Assembly: GCA_025356275.1 (NCBI GenBank)
Contig: JANXUK010000126.1
Coordinates: forward strand, 1 to 55,269
Length of the DNA stretch: 55,269 bases
DNA from: Sphingomonadales bacterium
Lineage (GTDB): Bacteria > Pseudomonadota > Alphaproteobacteria > Sphingomonadales > Sphingomonadaceae
Direction: 5' to 3'
The position numbers and the translations under genes were made by a program. The notes under the pieces were generated by a model that did not search any database, was not told the DNA's origin, and was given only the letters and a program-made list of their open reading frames with translations. Below, piece after piece: positions 645 through 47,260 of the stretch; within the stretch, counting starts at the first letter, position 1, and each line of letters starts with the position of its first letter.

Positions 645-726
645 ATTGCTGCGCTCCTGTTGCGGGGTGCTTGCCACAGCCGGGTGAGGCGGTAAACTCG
701 GGCACATTCCAAAGGGAGCCAGCGCC

Positions 727-1110
727 ATGTTCAGCCACGTTTTTGTAGGCAGCAACGATCTTGCCAAATCCAAGACCTTCTATGACGCCTGCTTCGGTGC
801 GATCGGCGGCAAGCCGGGCGTCCTCGATGGCAAAGGCCGGCTGGTCTATAGCCACAATGGCGGAATGTTCATGGCCTGCAAACCGATCGACGGTGCGCCC
901 GCGACCCCGGCCAATGGCGGCACCATCGGCTTTGCCATCCCCGAGCCTGCGCAGATCGACGCCTGGCACGCCGCCGGCGTCGCGGCGGGCGGCGCCACTT
1001 GCGAGGATCCGCCGGGGGTGCGGACCGGGCCGCTGGGCGCGCTCTACCTCGCCTATCTGCGCGATCCCGATGGCAACAAGCTTTGCGGGCTTTACGTGAT
1101 GCCCAAATGA
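727..1110 (+). CDS. VOC family (glyoxalase/bleomycin-resistance fold) protein
   Basis: The 127-aa protein has the vicinal-oxygen-chelate fold: opening MFSHVFVGSNDLAKSKTFYD and ending with the signature YLRDPDGNKLCG. Such proteins bind a divalent metal and act on glyoxal-type substrates or sequester drugs; the substrate cannot be told from sequence. Its stop overlaps the fdhD start in an ATGA arrangement, implying translational coupling. A paralogue with the same layout lies at 8618-8989. It is transcribed divergently from the truncated hydrolase, 82 bp apart. Confidence 0.85.
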   Translation: MFSHVFVGSNDLAKSKTFYDACFGAIGGKPGVLDGKGRLVYSHNGGMFMACKPIDGAPATPANGGTIGFAIPEPAQIDAWHAAGVAAGGATCEDPPGVRTGPLGALYLAYLRDPDGNKLCGLYVMPK

Positions 1111-1910
1111 GTGCCGCGCTCCGCGTCGCGCGTGATGGCAGCGCGGCGCGGGCACAGCGGCAGTGGGTGGGCGAGGCAGCGGTCGCGCTGGAGTTTAACG
1201 GGCTTGCCTATGCTGTGATGATGGCGACGCCGGCCGACCTTGAGGATTTCGCCGCCGGCTTTGCGCTGAACGAAGGTTTGGTGGCGGACATCGCCGGGAT
1301 CGGCGCGGTCACCGTGGCCGAGATCGACACTGCCGAGAGCCAGGGCTGGATCATCCGCGCGCAGCTGGCCGGCCTCGGTATCGAGCGGCTGGGTGAGCGG
1401 GTGCGAGCGCGTGTGGCCGAATCCTCCTGCGGGCTTTGTGGGGTCGAGAACCTCGCGGCGGTATCGCGCCCGTTGCCAATGGTCGCGGCGCATCGAGCCA
1501 TAGCGGCAGAGGAGATCTTTGCCGCTCTGGCCGCGCTGCCCGCGCACCAGCCGCTGAGCCAGGCGACCGGCGCCGCGCATGCCGCAGCCTTCGCCGATCC
1601 GTCGGGCGCGCTAGTGCGCGTGCGCGAGGATGTCGGGCGGCACAATGCGCTCGACAAGCTGGTCGGCGCGATGGCGCGGGCGGGTAAGTCTATGGACGCG
1701 GGCTTCGTCCTCTCCACCGCGCGGTGCAGCTATGAGATCGTTGAGAAGGCGGTGCGCGCCGGGGCCACCACGCTGGTCACCATCTCGCTGCCGACCAGCC
1801 TCGCGGTCAGCCGTGCCCGTGCCGCCGGGCTCAGCCTGTGGGTGCTGGCCCGCGATGACAGCGTGCTGTTGGTCCATGACGGCAGCCAAAAGCGCGTTTT
1901 CCACCCTTAA
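1107..1910 (+). CDS. fdhD: Formate dehydrogenase accessory sulfurtransferase FdhD
   Basis: FdhD moves sulfur from IscS to the molybdenum (bis-MGD) cofactor of formate dehydrogenases. The 267-aa product carries the diagnostic SSCGLCG loop (Cys108 and Cys111; the first corresponds to the persulfide-carrying Cys) and the EDVGRHNALDK block at about 174-184. The start is the ATG at 1107 inside the upstream stop (ATGA), shorter than the longest open frame, which would extend back into the VOC gene. No formate dehydrogenase or molybdenum-cofactor gene lies in the window, so its client enzyme must be encoded elsewhere. Confidence 0.93.
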   Translation: MSAALRVARDGSAARAQRQWVGEAAVALEFNGLAYAVMMATPADLEDFAAGFALNEGLVADIAGIGAVTVAEIDTAESQGWIIRAQLAGLGIERLGERVRARVAESSCGLCGVENLAAVSRPLPMVAAHRAIAAEEIFAALAALPAHQPLSQATGAAHAAAFADPSGALVRVREDVGRHNALDKLVGAMARAGKSMDAGFVLSTARCSYEIVEKAVRAGATTLVTISLPTSLAVSRARAAGLSLWVLARDDSVLLVHDGSQKRVFHP

Positions 1911-1961
1911 CGCCGCGCTATCGGGTGGACGGCGGGCCCCCGGCTGGGGCATGGCAGCGCG

Positions 1962-2633
1962 ATGTGGCAGCTTTATCACTTCCCGCTATGCCCGTTCAGC
2001 CGCAAGGTCCGCCTGCTGCTCAGCGAAAAGGGCATCGGCTATGAGTTGTGGCGCGAAAATCCATGGGAAGGCCGCGACGAATTCCGTGCGATGAACCCGG
2101 CTGGCCACACCCCGGTGCTCCGCAATGAGGAGCGCGACATCACCTTGGCGGACAGCCGGGCGATTTGCGAATATTTCGAGGAGACGTCGGACAAACAGCC
2201 GATGATCAACGGCACCGCCGCCGGGCGCGCCGAAATCCGCCGGCTGGTCGCGCTGTTCGATGAGAATTTCCACAGCGATGTCACCGGGCCGCTGCTGTAT
2301 GAGCGGATGAAGAAGCGGTTGGTCCTGCGCCAGTCGCCCGATTCCAAGGCGCTGCGCGAGGCGATGCGGCTGGCGCATGAGCATCTGTATTACATCGATT
2401 ATCTGCTCGATCACCGCCCCTGGCTGGCAGGCCCGACGATGAGCCTGGCCGATCTTGCCGCCGCCGCGCAGATCTCGGTCGCGGATTATCTGGGCGGGCT
2501 CGATTGGGCCGGGCACGATCAGGCGCGCGCGTGGTATTCGGTGTTCAAGAGCCGGCCCAGCTTCCGGCCATTGTTGACCGAGCGGATGGACGTGATCCAG
2601 CCGCCGGAGCATTATGCCGATGTGAATGCGTGA
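1962..2633 (+). CDS. fzlA: FzlA-like glutathione S-transferase family protein (FtsZ-localised)
   Basis: This 223-aa protein has a GST N-terminal thioredoxin fold (HFPLCPFSRKVRL), the NPAGHTPVL cis-Pro loop, and an all-helical C-terminal domain with SLADLAAAAQISVADYLG. The whole-length pattern, especially the KSRPSFRPLL and closing PPEHYADV segments, matches alphaproteobacterial FzlA, which binds FtsZ filaments and governs constriction in Caulobacter rather than acting as a classical GST. A plain GST remains possible. Its stop overlaps the next start (TGATG), so the two are probably co-translated. Confidence 0.75.
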   Translation: MWQLYHFPLCPFSRKVRLLLSEKGIGYELWRENPWEGRDEFRAMNPAGHTPVLRNEERDITLADSRAICEYFEETSDKQPMINGTAAGRAEIRRLVALFDENFHSDVTGPLLYERMKKRLVLRQSPDSKALREAMRLAHEHLYYIDYLLDHRPWLAGPTMSLADLAAAAQISVADYLGGLDWAGHDQARAWYSVFKSRPSFRPLLTERMDVIQPPEHYADVNA

Positions 2634-3019
2634 TGCAGCGCGGCCGGATTTTCAAACTCACCGGCTGGGGCGTAACGGCGCTGGTCACGCTGTTCATGCT
2701 GCGCGATATCGCCACCGATCTTCAGCAATCGCCGTGGGCGATTCAGGCCAATGCGGGGCTCGGCATTCCGGCGAATATAGTGTTGCCGATAGGGCTGAGC
2801 GGGCTGGCCGCGACGCTGCTTTATGCCTTTCCGCGCACCGCCGTTCTGGGGGCGATCCTGCTGACCGGGTTTTTTGGCGGCGCCTGCGTCATCCATTTGC
2901 GGATCCATGGCGCGGCGGATGACATTGCGGAGAATGTCATGCTCGGCGTGCTGGCCTGGAGTGGGTTGTGGCTGCGCGATCCGCACCTGCGCCGGTTGCT
3001 GCCGTTTCGCAGAGGCTGA
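2633..3019 (+). CDS. Small membrane protein, DoxX-like
   Basis: The 128-aa product has about four hydrophobic segments (roughly residues 8-23, 44-66, 68-90 and 98-115) with a short basic C-terminus (LRRLLPFRRG), consistent with a DoxX-like inner-membrane protein. The start ATG overlaps the preceding stop by one base (TGATG), which fixes the start and suggests co-translation with fzlA. It ends directly against the convergent gene at 3020, with no spacer. Function unknown. Confidence 0.75.
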   Translation: MQRGRIFKLTGWGVTALVTLFMLRDIATDLQQSPWAIQANAGLGIPANIVLPIGLSGLAATLLYAFPRTAVLGAILLTGFFGGACVIHLRIHGAADDIAENVMLGVLAWSGLWLRDPHLRRLLPFRRG

Positions 3020-4018
3020 TCAGCCGGCCTTGGCCTGCGCACCGAAGCGTCCCTGAACCCGGAACCGCATCAGCCACCGCACGAGAAACAGCTCCAGCGG
3101 GCGCGGCTCGACCCCCAGATCGGCGATCCCCGGCAGCGCGCCCGACGCTATGTTGCCAGCCTTGAGAAGCAGCCACTGCGCCCGCGTGATCGGCGCGCCC
3201 GGGAGCCACCCGGTCGCCCCCGCGATCAGCGCCGACACTGGATCGGGCAGCGGCACCAATACCGGCTTGCGCCCCGCCGCCGCCGCAATCCGCCGATTGA
3301 TGTCCAGCATGGTCAGCACTTCCGGTCCGGCAATCTCGTAAATTCGCCTGCCGTGCGCGCGCGGATCGGCCAAGGCATTGCCCGCCGCGATCGCCGCATC
3401 ATCGACGAACAGTGGCTGCAACTTCGCCTCCGGCCCGAACACCGGCAGCACCGGCAGCGCGCCCGCCAGCCCGGCGAACATATTGACGAAATGGTCATCT
3501 GGTCCGAACAGGATCGACGGGCGCAGCACGGTCGCGCCCGGAAACGCGGCCAGCACCGCCGCCTCACCCACACCCTTGCTCTGCGCATAACCTATCGTGG
3601 ATTCGGCATCCGCACCGATCGCCGAGATATGGACAAAAGCCTTCGCCCCGGCCGCTGCTGCCGCCGCCGCGATCGCCCCGGCGCCCCTGCCCTGCACCGC
3701 ATCGAGATCGCCAGCAAACGCGCCGACCAGATTGATCACCCCATGCGCGCCAGCCACCGCCGCCGCCAGCGACCCCGCGCCGCGCATCTTGCCGGTCACG
3801 TCGAGCCGCACCAGCTGAACCTGCCCCAGATTGCCCAATGTTTTCAGCGCAAACCCACGCTCGACATTGCGGCTGGCAATGCGCAGCCGCGCGCCGCGCG
3901 CCAGCAGCTCCTGCGCCAGATGCCGCCCAAAAAAGCCGCTCCCGCCGATCAGAACCACCAATTTGTCACGCAGGCGGTCATCGGATCTGGCATCGGGTCT
4001 GGCATCGGGTCTGGCCAT
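3020..4018 (-). CDS. NDUFA9-like NAD(P)-binding protein (extended SDR)
   Basis: The 332-aa product is an atypical extended short-chain dehydrogenase resembling the complex I subunit NDUFA9. After a short N-terminus comes the dinucleotide-binding VVLIGGSGFFGRHLAQ, then NLVGAF, HISAIGAD and a YxxxK-like YAQSKGVGE, then VLRPSILFGPDDHF. In alphaproteobacteria it is thought to be a respiratory-complex or quinone-linked accessory protein. The start at 4018 is chosen because GAGG lies 7 nt upstream; a further in-frame ATG at 4033 has no such site. Three 12-bp tandem units at 3980-4015 encode its DARPDARSD leader, so its N-terminal length could vary between strains. Confidence 0.82.
   Translation of the reverse strand: MARPDARPDARSDDRLRDKLVVLIGGSGFFGRHLAQELLARGARLRIASRNVERGFALKTLGNLGQVQLVRLDVTGKMRGAGSLAAAVAGAHGVINLVGAFAGDLDAVQGRGAGAIAAAAAAAGAKAFVHISAIGADAESTIGYAQSKGVGEAAVLAAFPGATVLRPSILFGPDDHFVNMFAGLAGALPVLPVFGPEAKLQPLFVDDAAIAAGNALADPRAHGRRIYEIAGPEVLTMLDINRRIAAAAGRKPVLVPLPDPVSALIAGATGWLPGAPITRAQWLLLKAGNIASGALPGIADLGVEPRPLELFLVRWLMRFRVQGRFGAQAKAG
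3980..4015. repeat. 12-bp tandem repeat, three units, in coding sequence
   Basis: Three successive 12-bp units (consensus ATCGGGTCTGGC, the first with one change) lie in frame within the first codons of the NDUFA9-like gene. They encode repeated ArgProAspAla-type residues ahead of the folded domain. In-frame units can be gained or lost without destroying the gene. Confidence 0.85.
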
Positions 4019-4176
4019 GGGAAACCTCGTCATTGCCGGGAATTGGCGGGCTTTCCTTGGCACAGGGCCGGCGTCCGGCGCAATAGGTGCTGTCGCACGG
4101 ACACGTCGCGTCGGCAAGTCGCTCGGCCTGGCAATCGCTCTTGCCCCCCGGCGCCCCCGACGCTAGGGCCCGCGCC

Positions 4177-5355
4177 ATGCTTAGCAATCTGCAACAACAG
4201 CCCGCCGACGCGCTTCTGGCGCTGATCAAGCTCCACAACGACGATCCGCGCACCAGCAAGATCGACCTCGGCGTCGGCGTCTATCGCACTGGCCAAGGCG
4301 ATACGCCGGTGTTCGGCGCGATCAAGGCCGCCGAAAAGCGCTTGCTCGAAACGCAAAATTCCAAGGCCTATCTGGGGCCGGAGGGCGATATGGGCTTTGT
4401 CCATGCGCTGATGCCTTATGTCTTCGGCAAGGCTGATCCGACGATGCAGGGCCGGATCGAGGGCATGCAGACCCCGGGCGGGACCGGCGCGGTGCGCCTC
4501 GCGCTGGGGCTGGCCAAGCGTGCTGGAGTGCAGCGGATATGGATGGGTGTGCCCAGCTGGCCCAACCACGCGCAGATCATCGCCGATCTCGGCCTGGAGC
4601 TGAAGACCTTCGCGCATAGCGCCGCCGATGGTGTCGCCGACATGGCGGCACTGCGCGGCGTTCTCGGCCAGGTCGCGCCGGGCGATGCGGTGCTGCTGCA
4701 TGGCTGCTGCCACAACCCCACCGGTATCGATTACACCAATGCCGATTGGGACGAGATCGGCCCGGCCATCGCGGCATCGGGCGTGCTGCCGATCCTCGAT
4801 CTTGCCTATCAGGGCCTCGGCGCCGGGATGGAGGAGGACGCCTATGGCATCCGCCGCGTGCTCTCTGCGGTGCCCGAGGCGTTGATCGCGTATAGTTGCG
4901 ACAAGAATTTCGGCCTGTACCGCGACCGGGTCGGCGCGGTCTATGTGATGATGGCCGAGGCCGCGCAGGTCGCCGCCGCGCTGTCCAATGGCCACGCGCT
5001 GGCCCGCGCCGCATGGTCGATGCCGCCCGATCACGGCGCCGCTGCCGTTCGCCTGATCCTTGAGGACCCGGCGCTGGTCGCCGATTGGCTGGGCGAGCTG
5101 GATATGATGCGCGGGCGCATGGCGCAGGTTCGCGCTCGGCTGGGCGCTGCCGGCAAGGCGGGCGCAGTCGATCTGACTCTGCTGGGGGCACAGCACGGCC
5201 TGTTCTCGATCGTGCCGCTGACCCCGGCGCAGATCCTGATCATGCGCGAGAAGCATGGGATCTATATGGCGGGTTCGGGGCGGATCAATATCGCCGGGCT
5301 GACGATGGGCAATATCGACGCCTTCATCGCCGCCGTGGCCGAGGTTAGCGCCTAA
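4177..5355 (+). CDS. Aromatic amino acid / aspartate aminotransferase (class I, PLP)
   Basis: The 392-aa protein is a class Ia aminotransferase of the AspC/TyrB type. It transfers an amino group between aromatic or acidic amino acids and 2-oxoglutarate. Visible landmarks are VGVYRTGQGDTPVF, GTGAVRLALG, CHNPTG (about residue 180), LDLAYQGLG, the PLP-lysine region CDKNFGLYRDRVG (Lys about 241) and GRINIAGL with the carboxylate-binding Arg. Length fits the family. Substrate preference (aspartate or tyrosine) cannot be decided here. It is divergent from the NDUFA9-like gene and is followed by two hairpins that may end its transcript. Confidence 0.92.
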   Translation: MLSNLQQQPADALLALIKLHNDDPRTSKIDLGVGVYRTGQGDTPVFGAIKAAEKRLLETQNSKAYLGPEGDMGFVHALMPYVFGKADPTMQGRIEGMQTPGGTGAVRLALGLAKRAGVQRIWMGVPSWPNHAQIIADLGLELKTFAHSAADGVADMAALRGVLGQVAPGDAVLLHGCCHNPTGIDYTNADWDEIGPAIAASGVLPILDLAYQGLGAGMEEDAYGIRRVLSAVPEALIAYSCDKNFGLYRDRVGAVYVMMAEAAQVAAALSNGHALARAAWSMPPDHGAAAVRLILEDPALVADWLGELDMMRGRMAQVRARLGAAGKAGAVDLTLLGAQHGLFSIVPLTPAQILIMREKHGIYMAGSGRINIAGLTMGNIDAFIAAVAEVSA

Positions 5356-8418: not shown

Positions 8419-8600
8419 TTTGGCGAAAAGCGCGAAAGAGCGCGTTTCGATTTAGGAAGCCTGTGCCATCCCGCTCCCCCTCCCGACCTCCCATCCAGGA
8501 TGCACGCTGTGGGAGGTCGGGAGGGGGAGCGGGATGGCACAGGCTGCGGGCCGTCAGGTCCGCCAAACAAACACACTCTGCGCGGGATGGCACAGGCTTG
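8419..8600. repeat. Dispersed palindromic repeat, copy A (36-bp perfect arms)
   Basis: Arms at 8458-8493 and 8510-8545 are perfect 36-bp inverted repeats around a 16-base loop; the arm begins AGCCTGTGCCATCCCGC. A left flank (TTTGGCGAAAAGCGCGAAAG onward, from 8419) recurs beside other copies at 14100, 20880 and 54540. A right extension (GCGGGCCGTCAGGTCCGCC onward, 8546-8600) recurs near 47226 and, inverted, before the copy at 54444. It lies between the EF-hand gene start and the stop of a convergent-side gene, in a 395-bp gap that otherwise shows no gene. Confidence 0.92.
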
Positions 8601-14096: not shown

Positions 14097-14240
14097 TTTT
14101 TGGCGAAAAGCGCGAAAGGGCGCTTGTCGCTGAGGAAGCCTGCGCCATCCCGCGCGCCCTCCCGACCTCCCGACCACCCATACAGATTATACGCTGTGGG
14201 AGGTCGGGAGGGCGCGCGGGCTGGCGCAGGCTTAACCCAA
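14097..14240. repeat. Dispersed palindromic repeat, copy B
   Basis: Arms at 14136-14171 and 14198-14233 (36 bp, one mismatch) flank a loop that contains an extra GACCACCCA segment. The left flank TTTTGGCGAAAAGCGCGAAA (14097 onward) matches the flank of copy A. It begins 5 bp after the dksA stop. The rest of the 310-bp gap to 14402 shows no gene; it ends with the leader of the PilZ gene. Confidence 0.9.
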
Positions 14241-14402
14241 CAAAGACGCTTCCGTGAAAATCATCCCAAATGTTAAGGCTTTGTTTGCCTCGCGGGTTTA
14301 TCACGAACTTAAGACGCCGTTCCCGAATCGTTCTGCCAACAGGCCGGGCGAGATGGGGGCAATACCGAACCCGGATCAACCGTACCTGAGGCACGAGGCG
14401 AA

Positions 14403-20752: not shown

Positions 20753-20785
20753 TCTCCCGTTTGATCGGCCACCGTTCCGGCGGCG

Positions 20786-20915
20786 AAGCCTGTTCCATCC
20801 CGCGCCCCCTCCCGACCTCCCACAGGCTGCATACTGGATGGGAGGTCGGGAGGGGGCGCGGGATCGAACAGGCTTCCTCAGCAAAAAGCGCCCTTCAGCG
20901 CTTTTCGCAAAATGC
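20786..20915. repeat. Dispersed palindromic repeat, copy C
   Basis: Arms at 20786-20822 and 20839-20875 (37 bp, one mismatch) around a 16-base loop. The conserved flank is on the right here (CAGCAAAAAGCGCCCTTCAG onward), so this copy is inverted relative to A and B. It lies between the divergent starts of maeB and mutS. No other feature is evident in that 250-bp gap. Confidence 0.9.
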
Positions 20916-42556: not shown

Positions 42557-42588
42557 AAGCCTGTGCCATCCCGCCCCCCTCCCGACCT
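42557..42588. repeat. Palindromic repeat copy D, left half (interrupted by transposon)
   Basis: This matches the first arm of copy A (AAGCCTGTGCCATCCCGC onward) but stops at the transposon edge. The other half continues at 47134. Joining the two after removing 42589-47133 and one target duplicate rebuilds a normal palindrome with its loop. Confidence 0.88.
42580..42588. repeat. Target-site duplication, left
   Basis: TCCCGACCT occurs directly before the left transposon end and again at 47134-47142 directly after the right end. IS1595 elements usually duplicate 8 bp; the ninth matching base may be chance because the target is itself repetitive. Confidence 0.75.
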
Positions 42589-42608
42589 GGGATTAATATA
42601 CTTGACAC
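42589..42608 (+). repeat. Left terminal inverted repeat of the IS1595-type transposon
   Basis: GGGATTAATATACTTGACAC. It matches the inverted right end (47114-47133) at about 16 of 20 positions, including TTAATATACTT. Confidence 0.85.
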
Positions 42609-42630
42609 AGCAGAGTCGCGGATTCATAAG
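42602..42630 (+). promoter_or_regulatory. Promoter inside transposon end
   Basis: A perfect -35 TTGACA (42602-42607) overlaps the terminal repeat, and CATAAG (42625-42630, four of six -10 positions) follows at 17 bp. The transposase ATG lies 7 bp after this -10, so the transcript would start at or just before the start codon. Confidence 0.5.
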
Positions 42631-42636
42631 GGTTTC

Positions 42637-43578
42637 ATGACCACGGAACCCCGCACCCTGATGGAAGCAGTCCGCTGCTTCGCGGACCCGGATGTTGCCC
42701 TCAAGCATATGGTAGATCTCCGTTGGCCAAGTGGCGTTCATTGCCCGGCCTGCGGTCGCACCGATGTTCGCTTCATCCCAACGCGGCGCATCTGGGAGTG
42801 CAAGGAAAAGCACGCGAAACGCCAGTTTTCGGCCAAAGTTGGCACAATCTTCGAGGACAGCGCCCTACCTCTCGATAAGTGGTTCGTTGCCATTTGGATG
42901 GTTGCCAACAGCAAGAATGGTATCAGTTCTTATGAGATGGGCCGTGCGATCGGCGTTACGCAAAAGTCGGCGTGGCACATGAACCACCGCATCCGTCTCG
43001 CGATGAAATTCGGCAGCATCGAGAAGATGGTTGGCGACGTGGAGCTCGATGAGACATTTGTCGGCGGCAAGGCTATCAATCGCCACAAGGGAGATCCGAA
43101 AAATGGTCCCGGTACGCACGGCAAGACTGCTGTGATCGGCGCTGTGAAGCGTGGCGGTGGTGCAATCGCTGCGGTCATCGAAAACACCGATACGGCTACG
43201 CTTGATGGCTTCGCGCATGCCGTGGTGTCGCCAAAGGCCACAAGTGTTTCGACGGACGAGCATGCGGGATACCGGCACCTTGGCCGCACATTCAATCACG
43301 GCGTCGTCCGGCATGGTGCGGGCGAATACGTTCGGGACCACCATCACACCAACAGCATCGAAGGATTTTGGGCGCTTCTGAAGCGGTCGATCAAGGGCAC
43401 TTACATCAGTGTCGAGCCCTTCCACCTCGGTCGCTACGTTGACGAGCATGTTTTTCGCTTCAACGAGCGTCACGGCAACGATGCCGACCGTTTCGCATCC
43501 GCAGTCAGCCGTATTTTCGGCCGGCGTCTCACCTATCGGGAGTTGACGCGTAATGCAGCGATCGCAACCGCCACATGA
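42637..43578 (+). CDS. IS1595-family transposase (ISXO2-like)
   Basis: The 313-aa transposase has an N-terminal zinc ribbon (Cys36, Cys39, Cys55; HCPACGRTDVRF), an HTH region (ISSYEMGRAIGVTQKSAWHM) and the IS1595 catalytic core: Asp138 in VELDETFVGGK, Asp207 in STDEHAGYRHLG, and HHHTNSIEGFWALLKRSIKG (His237, Asn239, Glu242). All are intact, so it may be active. The start at 42637 follows GGG closely; the frame upstream runs into host repeat sequence and is not coding. The 3' end overlaps the next gene by 26 bp. Confidence 0.95.
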   Translation: MTTEPRTLMEAVRCFADPDVALKHMVDLRWPSGVHCPACGRTDVRFIPTRRIWECKEKHAKRQFSAKVGTIFEDSALPLDKWFVAIWMVANSKNGISSYEMGRAIGVTQKSAWHMNHRIRLAMKFGSIEKMVGDVELDETFVGGKAINRHKGDPKNGPGTHGKTAVIGAVKRGGGAIAAVIENTDTATLDGFAHAVVSPKATSVSTDEHAGYRHLGRTFNHGVVRHGAGEYVRDHHHTNSIEGFWALLKRSIKGTYISVEPFHLGRYVDEHVFRFNERHGNDADRFASAVSRIFGRRLTYRELTRNAAIATAT

Positions 43579-43741
43579 GAGCCCCGAGAAGGCCGAGGCC
43601 GACGATCTTCGGACCCCGATGGAAAAGTTCCAAGACTTGGCGCGCAGCGTCGTGAACGCTCCTCGGGACAAGGTGAAAGAAGAAGAGGCGCGCATCGCGT
43701 TAGAAAATGCCGCGCGCAAAAAACGCCCGGTCAACCGCTGA
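43553..43741 (+). CDS. Small 62-aa charged protein linking transposase and RM gene
   Basis: The product is highly charged, with an acidic N-terminal tail and a helical core TPMEKFQDLARSVVNAPRDK followed by a basic end (ARKKRPVNR). It starts inside the transposase 3' end and its TGA overlaps the next ATG by one base (TGATG), so it is translationally coupled to the restriction-modification gene. I recall similar short TPxxKFxxLAxxVVxxP proteins in bacteria but no function. A regulator or antitoxin-like partner is possible, without direct evidence. Confidence 0.75.
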   Translation: MQRSQPPHESPEKAEADDLRTPMEKFQDLARSVVNAPRDKVKEEEARIALENAARKKRPVNR

Positions 43742-46641
43742 TGCTTACCTTGTACAAATCGGAGCGCGAAGTGGAGATCAAACTTCTCCATCCGCTATTC
43801 AGGGACATTTTGGGCTATCCCGAGGACGAACTAGATTGGGCCGTTCCTGTCGAGATGAGTTTTGGCCGCGAGAAGCGGATGAAAGAGGCTGACCTCGTAG
43901 CAAAGTACAAAGGCCGAAATGTCATAACCGTTGAAGCAAAAAAGCCAACGGTTCCAGTACAAGCACATATGGGGCAACTAGACTCCTATGCGTATCACCT
44001 TCAAACGCCATACAGCATAATTACGAATGGTCATCAGTTTATACTGAGGGGATACTATTCATTCAACAGTAGAATTAATGTCATTGATGAGAGCGTGGAC
44101 GGCCTTGCCAGTTCAAAATGGGAGAAGCTATCCAGCCTGATATCGTTCAAAAATATCAAGTCAACTATTGATGAGCCATCGCTTCCGATAGCCTTGCCCG
44201 ACGAGGGGAAAATCAGGGACTACAGGCGCTTCTTTCGGCGCATACACACAACGATCCGGGACCGTGACAAGCTCGATCCCGGTGCCGCCTTCGATGAACT
44301 GAGCAAGCTTCTGTTTCTAAAGGCGGCAGAAGATGAATGGTTGTCCCGCAATAGCGCGAAGCCTGTCCTGACAGCCGAGAAGATCCTTGAATTTGAGATT
44401 TTGGGAAAGGAGGCGGCGCAGAAGTTCGTCAATGAATGGTTCAACGCGGCAACAAACGAGCTTTTCCCGGGTGTCTTTGGGGATCAGCCCCAGATAAATC
44501 TCTCCCCAAGCACGCTGGCGCTTGTCCTCGACGATATGGCGAGCTTCCACGTCAAGGGCGGCGACGTGGACGTTAAGGGCCGCGCATTCGAAGAGTTTCT
44601 TCCCTCGCAATTGCGGGGCGAAGGGCTAGGCCAGTTCTTTACGCCTAGGCCCGTTGTCAATTTCATGGCAGACCTCGCGGGGATTTCCATCCACGACGTT
44701 GTGGCGGATTTTGCGTGCGGCTCGGGCGGGTTTCTCATCAAGGCGTTCGAGCAAATGGAGCGCGGCGTTGAGCAGTTGCCGGACGGCATGCTCGCGCGGC
44801 TTGGCAGCTCGCGGGCGGAGCTTTTGGAAGACATCAAATCCCATCAGATTTATGGCATCGACGCCGAACCCAGGGCGGCGCGCACCGCCAAAATGAACAT
44901 GCTAATGTGGGGAGACGGGAAAAAGGTCGTCCGCGGAAACGGGCTCGACGATAAGGACCTTGCCGGGAATCCTTACGAGCTGGTGGAGTACAACCCGCGC
45001 AATCAAGGCTCAGGATGCACTGTCATCCTCGCAAATCCGCCGTTCGGCAGCAGTGAAAAGGATCAAACCATCCTTCGCCGCTATTCCCTTGGCAGCCAAA
45101 CTCAGGAAAAGAAGTCTGAAAAGACCGAGATCTTGTTCATTGAGAAGGGGATCAAGCTGCTTCGCCCTGAGGGCAAGATGCTGATTGTGTTGCCGCAAGG
45201 TTTAATGAGCGGTGTGAACAACGCCCGCGTCCGCGATTACATTCACAGTCAGGCGGAAGTGAGGGCGGTGATTAGCCTTCCCACGCATTCCTTTGTTCAG
45301 TCTGGCGTCGCTACCGTTAACACCTGCGTACTGTTCCTTCAAAAATTTACCCAAGAAAAGAAGGACCTATACGACAAAAAAACGAAGAGCGTTGCGCCCG
45401 CAGTCATCAGGAAGCTCATCCGTACCGACCCGGATTTCGACTATCCAATCTTCATGGGTACAGCCGAGTTTGTTGGCTTTGAACCTAGCGGTCGAACCAT
45501 CGTCGAGCCGGGCGAGAAGACCGACCTTGACCTACTGTTGGAGGATTTCGCGAACGACGATGGCTTGGCCAATCCTGAGATAGACCTTTTTGAGTTCGCG
45601 TCCCGCTTCTACGGCGAGAAATCGTTCCGCCGGAAGGACCAGACCGTTCGCGGAACGGTGAAGGGATTGAAGACGTCGTTCTCTATTCGCCTCGGTGAAA
45701 CGGAAGATCGTTTCGACCCCCCGTTCTATTTGTTCAGGGCACAGGCCGGAACCACAATCCAAGCCCTTGAGCCGCTCGGGAATAGGGTTCGCAAGGGTAA
45801 GGACCGGCTTAGGATCGTAACTGAGGACGACAAGGACCGGGAGTTTGCCTTCGCCTCAGTCTCAAGTGATGGGAGCGTGACACTTGATGATATCGTAAAA
45901 GGCGAGGAGTTCAAAAAGGCATACCGACCTAAGAAAGTGGTTCCCGGCGATTTCATTTATAATCCGATGAGAATTAATATTGGAAGTATCGGAATAGTTC
46001 CTGATTCCGACAGAGAGATTATAACCAGCCCAGACTACGTTGTTTTCCGGGCCGATGGCATTAATCCTGACTTCCTTCTTAATATATTGCGTTCTCCATT
46101 TTACAGAATGTATATGGACGTTGTTTCGACAGGCTCGATAAGGGACCGTCTGTATTTCGAGGACTTACAAGCCCTGCGCATTCCTGACACCTCGGATGCT
46201 GAACAAATCTTTTTGTCGGAGTTCGGTCGGCGTGTCGATGAAGGGAGTCGTGACCTCCTTGCTGAAATCAGAGCGCAGCGATCACAGGTCAATGAGCGCC
46301 TTCATGCACTGGTTCGGGAGGCCGAAGTCAGGCATGGCGGAGTATCGGTCTCTGACTCATTCCGCGTCCTAGCGGAGAGGTGGAAACGTGAGACCGCAAT
46401 ACTCTCGTCGCTCTCGAAAAAAACGAAGCACCCTGCCTATCGCGAGATCGTGAAATTGGGCGATGCAGTGCTGCCCTATCTGATCTGTGAATTGGCTGGG
46501 CAGCCGGATCATTGGTTCTCGGCTTTGGAGGAGATTACTGGCAAGAACCCGGTGAGCGAAGCGGACAGAAAAGACATCCAGTGGGCGACTCAAGCGTGGG
46601 TTCGCTGGGCTCACGAAAATGGCATCACCCTGAATGTCTGA
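43741..46641 (+). CDS. Single-chain restriction-modification protein (nuclease-methylase-specificity) with extra C-terminal module
   Basis: The 966-aa protein has four parts. Residues 8-110 form an HsdR-type PD-(D/E)XK nuclease: Asp51, Glu65-Ala-Lys67 in TVEAKKP, and QLDSY (QxxxY, 79-83). Residues 160-540 are an HsdM-type N6-adenine methylase: GQFFTPR (297-303), motif I DFACGSGGF (323-331), motif IV NPPF (432-435). Residues 670-860 resemble one HsdS target-recognition half, ending with STGSIRDRLYFEDLQALRIP and a coiled coil. Residues 870-966 are a further helical module with HPAYREIVKLG, DHWFSALEEITGKNPV and AWVRWAHENG. No helicase/translocase domain is present, so it resembles type IIG rather than type I enzymes. 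All visible catalytic residues are intact. AT-richer than the host. Its end overlaps the next gene by 8 bp. Confidence 0.88.
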   Translation: MLTLYKSEREVEIKLLHPLFRDILGYPEDELDWAVPVEMSFGREKRMKEADLVAKYKGRNVITVEAKKPTVPVQAHMGQLDSYAYHLQTPYSIITNGHQFILRGYYSFNSRINVIDESVDGLASSKWEKLSSLISFKNIKSTIDEPSLPIALPDEGKIRDYRRFFRRIHTTIRDRDKLDPGAAFDELSKLLFLKAAEDEWLSRNSAKPVLTAEKILEFEILGKEAAQKFVNEWFNAATNELFPGVFGDQPQINLSPSTLALVLDDMASFHVKGGDVDVKGRAFEEFLPSQLRGEGLGQFFTPRPVVNFMADLAGISIHDVVADFACGSGGFLIKAFEQMERGVEQLPDGMLARLGSSRAELLEDIKSHQIYGIDAEPRAARTAKMNMLMWGDGKKVVRGNGLDDKDLAGNPYELVEYNPRNQGSGCTVILANPPFGSSEKDQTILRRYSLGSQTQEKKSEKTEILFIEKGIKLLRPEGKMLIVLPQGLMSGVNNARVRDYIHSQAEVRAVISLPTHSFVQSGVATVNTCVLFLQKFTQEKKDLYDKKTKSVAPAVIRKLIRTDPDFDYPIFMGTAEFVGFEPSGRTIVEPGEKTDLDLLLEDFANDDGLANPEIDLFEFASRFYGEKSFRRKDQTVRGTVKGLKTSFSIRLGETEDRFDPPFYLFRAQAGTTIQALEPLGNRVRKGKDRLRIVTEDDKDREFAFASVSSDGSVTLDDIVKGEEFKKAYRPKKVVPGDFIYNPMRINIGSIGIVPDSDREIITSPDYVVFRADGINPDFLLNILRSPFYRMYMDVVSTGSIRDRLYFEDLQALRIPDTSDAEQIFLSEFGRRVDEGSRDLLAEIRAQRSQVNERLHALVREAEVRHGGVSVSDSFRVLAERWKRETAILSSLSKKTKHPAYREIVKLGDAVLPYLICELAGQPDHWFSALEEITGKNPVSEADRKDIQWATQAWVRWAHENGITLNV

Positions 46642-47119
46642 AGAATATCTAGCTCCCGAACTGGAGGCGAATTTCCCAAACCTCCGCCGAGGTGAGTACG
46701 AGAAAACCAGCAAGAACACGGCAGTTTACAACTGCATTGCCTATGCGGCTGAGGATGAAAGCGTGTGGTGGTGGCCCGACCATGGCGTGGGTATTTACTG
46801 GCCTGTTGGGGTTTCTCAGGAAGAGACAATCGAAAGCTTCGTTCATGCATACGGCTCGATTGGCTATGTGGTTTGTGACGACGGGTGCCGTAACGTCGAA
46901 GCTGGCTTCCAAAAGATCGCGATCTACGTGGATGATGATGGCGTTCCCAGCCACGCGGCGCGGCAACTCCCATCGGGATGTTGGACAAGCAAGCTGGGAA
47001 AGGCCGAGGATATCCGACACAACACATTGGAGGCAATCGAGAGCGACCCCATCATGGGGCTTGGCTACGGCAAGGTAGCTCTCATCATGCGCCGACCCGC
47101 CGTAGAGATCACTGAGTGA
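46634..47119 (+). CDS. DUF7689-like protein co-translated with the RM protein
   Basis: The 161-aa protein begins 8 bp before the upstream stop (ATGTCTGA overlap), so it is tightly coupled. Landmarks are TAVYNCIAYAAEDESVWWWPD (Cys34), YWPVGVSQEETIESF, NVEAGFQKIAIYVDDDG, PSHAARQLPSGCWTSKLG (His107), EDIRHNT (His129) and GYGKVALIMRR. I recognise it as a widespread family of unknown function, tentatively DUF7689. A Cys in a helix followed by a His after a strand resembles a papain-like Cys-His arrangement, but that is inference. The stop lies in the right transposon end. It belongs to the element, not the host. Confidence 0.8.
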   Translation: MSEEYLAPELEANFPNLRRGEYEKTSKNTAVYNCIAYAAEDESVWWWPDHGVGIYWPVGVSQEETIESFVHAYGSIGYVVCDDGCRNVEAGFQKIAIYVDDDGVPSHAARQLPSGCWTSKLGKAEDIRHNTLEAIESDPIMGLGYGKVALIMRRPAVEITE

Positions 47120-47133
47120 AGTATATTAACCCC
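47114..47133 (-). repeat. Right terminal inverted repeat of the IS1595-type transposon
   Basis: Reverse complement reads GGGGTTAATATACTTCACTC, matching the left end. It contains the stop codon of the last passenger gene. Confidence 0.85.
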
Positions 47134-47260
47134 TCCCGACCTCCCATTTAGTGTGCATCCTATGGGAGGTCGGGAGGGGGCGCGGGCCAATCCCGTCGGT
47201 AGACGGCAAACAACCGCACAGGCTTGCGGGCCGTCCGGGCCGCCAAGCAAACAGACTCCG
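47134..47260. repeat. Palindromic repeat copy D, right half
   Basis: It begins with the target duplication TCCCGACCT, then loop TTTAGTGTGCATCCTA and the second arm TGGGAGGTCGGGAGGGGGCG. After about 24 bp the arm diverges from copy A (GGGCCAATCCCG), and then the right extension (CTTGCGGGCCGTCCGGGCCG onward, about 47223) matches that after copy A. The remaining gap to 47361 shows no gene. Confidence 0.85.

Follow-up and report, generated by a model that had tools for sequence, protein, structure and literature searches.

An IS1595-family transposon carrying a type IIG restriction-modification protein fused to half of an apparently undescribed two-gene module

Introduction

Can a complete restriction-modification (R-M) system move between the two ends of a single insertion sequence (IS), and what are the small genes that travel with it? 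This question is raised by positions 42589-47133 of a 55,269-nt contig (JANXUK010000126.1) from a Sphingomonadales bacterium. We refer to this whole stretch as the window; it is contig C66 of a 3.18-Mb draft genome in 143 contigs. A first-pass annotation, made from the sequence alone, had described here an IS1595-type transposon with four overlapping genes: a transposase, a 62-aa protein, a single chain joining nuclease, methylase and specificity parts, and a 161-aa partner. It could not match the chain, together with its small partners, to a defence system already described.

R-M genes linked to ISs are described as mobile, in composite transposons or, as with PaeR7I, together with IS1 or IS5 (PMC3031569). 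Passenger genes on IS1595 elements are known as well, those of ISNha5 being named as transcription regulators (PMC11891212). In the titles and abstract openings of the open-licence papers that our searches listed, we found no R-M system within an IS1595 element, though the founding paper (Siguier 2009) may mention such passengers. With both kinds of mobility already known, what appears new at this locus is R-M on such an element plus one apparently undescribed module: by sequence comparison, the transposon fuses its R-M protein to one half of that two-gene module.

Results

Anatomy and insertion site of the transposon

The element, its ends and its surroundings are as follows.

42557..42588, no strand: interrupted palindromic host repeat, left part (comparison with intact copies)
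42580..42588, no strand: target site duplication TCCCGACCT, left copy (direct repeat)
42589..47133, + strand: IS1595-family transposon, 4545 bp (ends, target duplication, interrupted host repeat, GC shift)
42589..42612, + strand: left terminal inverted repeat, GGGATTAATATACTTGACACAGCA (19/24 positions complementary to the right end)
42637..43578 (from the first in-element ATG), + strand: transposase, 313 aa (PF12762 DDE_Tnp_IS1595, E 2.7e-35; PF12760 zinc ribbon, 1.4e-10; NF033547, 1.5e-51)
43553..43741, + strand: 62-aa open reading frame (ORF) overlapping the transposase stop (ORF call)
47110..47133, - strand: right terminal inverted repeat, CACTGAGTGAAGTATATTAACCCC (pairs with the left end)
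47134..47142, no strand: target site duplication TCCCGACCT, right copy (direct repeat)
47134..47187, no strand: interrupted palindromic host repeat, right part (comparison with intact copies)

All four ORFs lie on the + strand at the coordinates first given for them, with successive overlaps of 26, 1 and 8 bases. When candidate ends were compared, the right end at 47133 scored highest of those downstream of the left end. The target site duplication (TSD) is 9 bp with the ends as set, and 8 bp is equally possible if the element gains one base. The element has inserted into a long palindromic host repeat, within one of its two arms. This repeat reads AAGCCTGTGCCATCCCGCGCCCCCTCCCGACCTCCCATTCAGTGTGTATCCTGTGGGAGGTCGGGAGGGGGAGCGGGATGGCACAGGCT in locus L004 and recurs at no fewer than 39 further distinct places in the genome; this is a lower bound, as 40 of 136 candidates were scored and the copy near window position 14200 is absent from the list. 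In intact copies the TSD sequence is present a single time, in the arm that in the window bears it on either side of the element, and because the insertion splits that very arm, the duplication is more than a chance repeat. The anatomy bears out the earlier description of matched ends, a target duplication and a single 4.5-kb unit. The palindrome family itself is about 90 bases long and near-perfect, with four copies in the window (~8455-8545, ~14140-14245, ~20785-20890 and the interrupted one at 42557-42588 / 47134-47187); the interrupted copy gave no Rfam match.

The transposase belongs to IS1595, as first annotated. Its catalytic domain matches NF033547 with 175 bits over a cut-off of 75, its N-terminal zinc ribbon matches PF12760 with 41.3 bits over a cut-off of 25.4, and the element begins GGGA and is flanked by a TSD of 8 or 9 bp. 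In the family, the zinc ribbon is described as missing in the IS1016 group alone and the target duplication as 8 bp, and the related Merlin elements have GG ends and duplications of 8 or 9 bp (PMC8101967).

We found a single copy of the element interior in this genome. Its GC content (54.2%, against 66.1% in the rest of the window) is in line with a recent arrival. For a view of the site in relatives, we searched 59 genomes of the same genus for the MFS gene downstream of the element; 46 had a match, and the best 15 loci were compared. At one of these (L075), the upstream neighbour, which we take to be mmcB-like, adjoins the MFS gene, with element and palindrome both missing between them. At two more (L082, L086) the mmcB-like gene lies within the fetched stretch with another gene in between, as judged by eye, and at the remaining 12 of the 15 it was not seen within about 1.5 kb.

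Within the left terminal inverted repeat, TTGACA at 42602-42607 is a possible -35 box. A promoter scan found 2 promoters, compared with 2.0 expected from shuffling, and none at the left end of the element. Between 42000 and 47600, Rfam gave no match at gathering scores.

Related IS1595 elements and their passengers

A search of 296 genomes of the order for the transposase (E <= 1e-60) returned 11 places in 10 genomes, including the genome of the window. The ten foreign transposases are 41-43% identical to ours. Eight of the ten places are complete elements, 2.1-4.1 kb long, with inverted ends and exact TSDs of 7-9 bp (L036, L037, L039, L040, L041, L042, L043 and L044), and for L038 and L045 there are candidate right ends but no TSD. 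Although we found no further copy of precisely this element, ends of its type recur in other complete IS1595 elements, and for this reason the transposon reading stands. Taking these lines together, we consider it highly probable that the R-M system is carried on an IS1595 transposon.

All eight complete relatives carry additional ORFs behind the transposase. A Pfam search, covering the elements other than L040, named N6_Mtase and Methylase_S in L041, Bro-N in L037, P63C in L039 and DUF1828 in L043; it gave no name to the second ORF of L043, to the passengers of L036 and L044 or to the two ORFs of L042. In the L041 element (genome G053; 725-4782, 4058 bp), which has ends and a TSD of its own, PADLOC models match two passenger proteins, one a 632-aa chain (REase_MTase_IIG, 4e-103) and the other 318 aa long (Specificity_II, 2.4e-45). 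By these matches this is a second type IIG R-M system in an IS1595 element, in two proteins and of another design than that in the window. Bro-N antirepressor-like passengers occur at L037 1758-2747 (by Pfam) and L045 6991-7962 (by eye), and both loci have a short leader region after the transposase.

The R-M core is of a known kind

The third and fourth genes encode the following parts.

43741..46641, + strand: 966-aa type IIG R-M protein with fused C-terminal DHWF domain (Pfam, PADLOC, solved relatives, alignment)
43804..44055, + strand: nuclease domain HSDR_N_2, residues 22-105 (PF13588, E 1.7e-9)
44569..45363, + strand: N6-adenine methylase domain, residues 277-541, with NPPF at 432-435 (PF02384, E 1.1e-35)
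45823..46314, + strand: single HsdS-like target-recognition half, residues 695-858 (three PADLOC Specificity_I models, 1.7e-17, 1.6e-15 and 4.6e-15)
46330..46629, + strand: DHWF domain, residues 864-963 (36% identity to the stand-alone proteins of L050 and L051; profile matches; model pLDDT 89)
46634..47119, + strand: 161-aa DUF7689 protein, predicted papain-like fold (PF24738, E 2.2e-37; alignment; model; structure rows)

One ORF holds nuclease, N6-methylase and one specificity half, and the description of a complete single-chain R-M protein was correct. HSDR_N_2 and N6_Mtase both exceed their cut-offs, the combination expected of a type IIG enzyme. PADLOC models of type I and II methylases match the chain, some starting at residue 6 or 16 and running through the nuclease part, and REase_MTase_IIG matches at 1.4e-19 over the methylase part only (residues 274-533). 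Solved relatives are methylase subunits and the single-chain RM.BsaXI. We also considered membership of the MADS system; the MAD2 methylase model scores 215 bits against an equivalog cut-off of 720, and this assignment was rejected.

A chain at L017, on a contig labelled as an uncultured Clostridia metagenome-assembled genome, is 872 aa long, 55% identical and built from the same parts. D51, E65-x-K67 and NPPF 432-435 are conserved in the alignment of the two proteins, and D51 and E65-x-K67 are the inferred catalytic residues of the nuclease. The L017 chain stops where the window protein reaches about residue 857 and so has no C-terminal extension; on its 6.5-kb contig, relatives of the transposase, of DUF7689 and of the tail were all not found. 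Since such relatives hold the same parts, the core up to about residue 857 is, by homology, an ordinary type IIG chain of a known kind.

Within the family, 7 of 249 genomes (own included) match the chain at 1e-20. The nearest of these relatives (G162; 52% and 43% identity over two pieces) is split by another insertion and again has no extension. The locus L023 (5507-9329) holds a relative of the core that has no extension and is interrupted by a transposase ORF, IS5-like by eye. No close relative of the 966-aa protein was found in plasmid records (the best row has 25% identity over 87%), and a viral-contig scan with the core returned no relative.

The tail of the R-M chain is half of a two-gene module

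The first-pass annotation had overlooked that the last ~100 residues of the 966-aa protein, by comparison with proteins elsewhere, are a separate domain that is not part of R-M. We call this domain DHWF, a label coined here from a motif of the protein. Its model is confident (pLDDT 89.4) and all helical. Searches with four members against PHROGs and Pfam, and with three against PADLOC, gave no match at E 0.01, and Foldseek against the PDB returned nothing with E below 1.

The relatives of DHWF are found next to DUF7689. DUF7689 is rare: with our own genome counted each time, it occurs in 1 of the 296 order-level genomes, in 5 of 289 from the class and in 5 of 398 in a phylum sample. In both foreign genomes with a strong DUF7689 match (L050 in G830, L051 in G819), an overlapping small DHWF protein lies directly upstream. 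An alignment of DHWF (A4) found exactly G000, G819 and G830 in a 398-genome phylum sample, which are also the three genomes with strong DUF7689 in the phylum sample; the two samples, of 398 genomes each, were drawn in the same way and not compared genome by genome.

Viral contigs extend this association. Three DUF7689 sequences, used together as queries, led to 18 loci, which share the residues of the search pattern YNCIA[WY]A by construction, and a repeat with a wider DUF7689 alignment, using this sole pattern, gave the same 18. At every one of them, the ORF directly upstream of DUF7689 matches the DHWF profile (17 at E <= 1.4e-8, L067 at 0.0019). The two open frames differ and overlap at 16 of the 18; at L066 DUF7689 matches in two separate frames, and at L069 over its first part only. 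The DUF7689 alignment (A3) omits L065, L066 and L069, whose frames are partial or broken, plus the two genome loci; A4 omits L064 and L067 (E above 1e-8), plus the same two genome loci. A viral-contig scan with the DHWF alignment found one contig, already among the 18, and single-sequence viral scans with DUF7689 and with DHWF confirmed no relative. Neither protein had a match in plasmids, nor did DUF7689 in phages.

Because the tail domain pairs with well-formed members of the 161-aa family at every locus, the 161-aa protein is, on this comparative evidence, a partner of the DHWF tail rather than of the R-M core. The first-pass annotation overstated the novelty of the core, for which the PADLOC models, RM.BsaXI and L017 indicate a known type IIG/IIB-like kind. 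The components are also found apart in relatives: the R-M core stands alone at L017 and L023, and the module occurs at 20 other loci.

DUF7689 is predicted to be papain-like

For the 161-aa protein, Pfam gave no match other than DUF7689, and we found no paper on this family in the open-licence literature. Across 16 aligned rows, C34 (after Y32-N33), H107 and H129 are invariant and D126 is nearly so. The Cys-then-His order of papain-like hydrolases is present, with C34 and H107 in 16/16 rows. Invariance of N33-C34 arises partly by construction, as these residues lie in YNCIA[WY]A, and the His and Asp positions are independent of the pattern. In the divergent L046 and L047 proteins, found by profile without the pattern, NC and HAA are kept, as judged by eye.

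In the structural model (pLDDT 87.9, pTM 0.84), a helix begins at C34 and is followed by strands bearing H107 and D126-H129. The leading rows from Foldseek and VIA-align, most of them papain-like, are AvrPphB, NlpC/P60 proteins, a papain-like toxin/immunity pair, CdiA-CT and Tae3. From this model, DUF7689 likely adopts a papain-like fold.

Varied genes precede the module

At L055 (4124-5002), sigma-70 region 2 shares one ORF with DHWF (Pfam 3.3e-10), and DUF7689 follows. A TIGR04255 protein stands before the module at L054, L062 and L068, and proteins at L058, L063 and L064 look alike by eye; no paper on TIGR04255 was found in the open-licence literature. On phage-like contigs, the TIGR04255 frame and the start of DHWF overlap, and the genes form a string of three, TIGR04255-DHWF-DUF7689. 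A DUF6941 protein takes the first position at L067 (6.1e-23). By eye, one small protein is common to L053, L056 and L071 (that of L053 without a family match over cut-off) and another to L057, L060 and L061 (DUF3467 at 0.019 for L061, below cut-off; nothing for L060). L052 has a sub-threshold hint of EAD1 (0.0073). No recognised partner precedes the module at L059, L065, L066 and L069, of which the family search covered the upstream ORF of L066. The module thus appears to stand behind varied first components.

Palindromic targets and the 62-aa ORF

Ends of the type ATATACTTGACA are shared by the window element, L042, L043 and L044. Each of these four elements sits within a perfect inverted repeat or immediately next to one. 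The arms measure 19, 10, 8 and 7 bases, lengths reached at random places in the same loci in 0, 0, 110 and 152 of 1500 draws; the grouping by end type was made after inspection of the data. The insertion sites of L042, L043 and L044 are palindromes or a terminator-like hairpin. Around the five TSD-flanked elements whose ends are of another type (L036, L037, L039, L040 and L041), there is no inverted repeat of at least 6 bases. Folding energies did not show a palindrome effect; they are uninformative in GC-rich DNA, and the 60-base stretch used for the window lost most of the stem, so the inverted-repeat count was used instead. Targeting of repetitive extragenic palindromic (REP) sequences is described for ISs of the IS3, IS110, IS4, IS256 and IS5 families, and IS1595 does not occur in that source's text on REP targeting (PMC1525189).

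The 62-aa ORF had no match over cut-off in Pfam, PADLOC or NCBIfam, and no relatives of it were found in plasmids or in the loci compared. We considered kinship with post-transposase leader peptides of other elements (LDMPFDEALERF, by eye) and found no similarity.

Discussion

We interpret the element as a non-composite IS1595-family transposon whose transposase would act on the 24-bp ends and move the operon-like, overlapping genes as a unit. From its families, the 966-aa chain would methylate adenine at its target and cut unmodified DNA, and because it holds one specificity half, the enzyme probably works as a dimer. The helical DHWF domain, fused here to the R-M C-terminus and elsewhere a separate protein directly before DUF7689, is probably the DUF7689-binding part. 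DUF7689, the last gene, with its conserved Cys and His, would encode a predicted papain-like cysteine hydrolase. In the best explanation overall, which we hold to be somewhat likely, DHWF holds or positions this protein, and the R-M enzyme of the IS1595 transposon thereby carries a second-line effector.

How such an effector might be controlled is a more tentative matter. In the reading that we prefer, a hypothesis, inhibition or loss of the R-M enzyme could release or switch on DUF7689, much as PrrC relates to its type I enzyme; by this analogy, we regard a guardian-type coupling as possible and on balance unlikely. A broader version, which we consider doubtful, would make DHWF-DUF7689 an effector module (an adaptor and a papain-like cysteine hydrolase) mounted on varied sensors, here yielding a self-guarding mobile type IIG R-M system in which a phage block frees the hydrolase and the cell stops.

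Several points weigh against a held second-line effector. The fusion of DHWF to R-M was seen once. Elsewhere TIGR04255, DUF6941 or small unknown proteins precede the module rather than R-M, so by gene context the module is without a general tie to restriction. At L046-L049 (G562, G476, G606 and G558), where DUF7689 is weak or divergent, no DHWF was found in stretches of ~3.3 kb. The fold matches score modestly (best Z 5.8; best Foldseek E 0.11, none below 0.1), in a range that the tool itself describes as common. It may also be that DHWF serves as a scaffold or that DUF7689 lacks enzymatic activity.

Two of the alternatives that follow, a stabiliser and a processing enzyme, fit almost as well as the guardian model. 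In the first, DHWF-DUF7689 would be a toxin-antitoxin-like stabiliser with DHWF as the antitoxin; the fusion would make loss of the transposon lethal and add to the post-segregational hold of R-M, without phage sensing. Two small adjacent genes in antitoxin-first order, overlapping in different frames at 16 of 18 viral-contig loci, suggest such a pair, and its sporadic spread (any DUF7689 in 5/289 class and 5/398 phylum genomes, own included) and presence on phage-like contigs are consistent with it. The argument is one of gene order and overlap, however, with toxicity only putative, and a variable DHWF N-terminus with a third gene often in front would be unusual for a simple pair. We think this reading improbable, if worth serious weight.

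Comparably unlikely, in our judgement, is a plain R-M transposon on which gene capture left both the fused tail and the 161-aa gene as neutral passengers. L017 has a complete-looking R-M chain with neither DHWF nor DUF7689, and the passengers of related elements are diverse, both as expected of neutral cargo. Against this, both halves of the module are open and adjacent and keep the conserved DUF7689 residues, and DHWF is fused in frame with its stop still overlapping the DUF7689 start, as in stand-alone modules.

DUF7689 might alternatively be a dedicated processing hydrolase that cleaves or modifies the R-M chain or other partner proteins, with DHWF as a docking tag, and adjusts R-M after transfer to a new host. 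The predicted papain-like fold with its conserved Cys-His and the occurrence of DHWF at the end of unrelated chains (R-M here, sigma-70 region 2 at L055) would suit this role. The cleavage site is only conjectural, however, and at most loci DHWF stands alone as a small protein; we consider processing a weak candidate. An ordinary R-M island that happens to lie between inverted repeats, with no transposon at all, would fit the single copy found in this genome but is practically irreconcilable with a family transposase, 19/24 matching ends, an exact TSD, a host repeat that is interrupted here and intact elsewhere, and eight elements of like design.

The element and its parts can be set beside known systems. 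Like the ISNha5-type passenger elements of IS1595 (tIS), this one combines DDE_Tnp_IS1595 and a zinc ribbon with GG ends, a TSD of 8-9 bp and genes downstream of the transposase; unlike them, its passengers are a type IIG R-M system plus DUF7689. With type IIG/IIB-like single-chain enzymes such as RM.BsaXI, it shares nuclease, N6-methylase and specificity part in one chain, and differs in its single specificity half and in its C-terminal DHWF, which its two nearest relatives lack. AloI-like enzymes are presumably of the same kind. Where R-M genes such as PaeR7I are linked to IS elements, whole ISs are linked to or flank them, whereas here R-M lies inside the two ends of a single element.

The linked type I R-M system keeps PrrC silent, as in EcoprrI, and in both PrrC and PARIS, as described, an effector is genetically tied to R-M (PMC12707154, PMC2610378). 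In our case the tie, as seen in the genes, is a partner domain fused to R-M. With papain-like and NlpC/P60 proteins, toxin domains included, DUF7689 shares a conserved Cys at a predicted helix start and a conserved His on a predicted strand, and they supply its best structural rows; no sequence family link was found, the Z scores are modest and DUF7689 stays a family of its own.

A self-contained R-M system in one 4.5-kb IS-type element would be a very small unit of transferable immunity, and the unrelated type IIG system of L041 suggests that capture of R-M by IS1595 elements happens repeatedly. The fusion of its DHWF partner to a defence enzyme would offer a first clue to the function of DUF7689, which now has a constant partner domain, a probable active site and a physical link to that enzyme.

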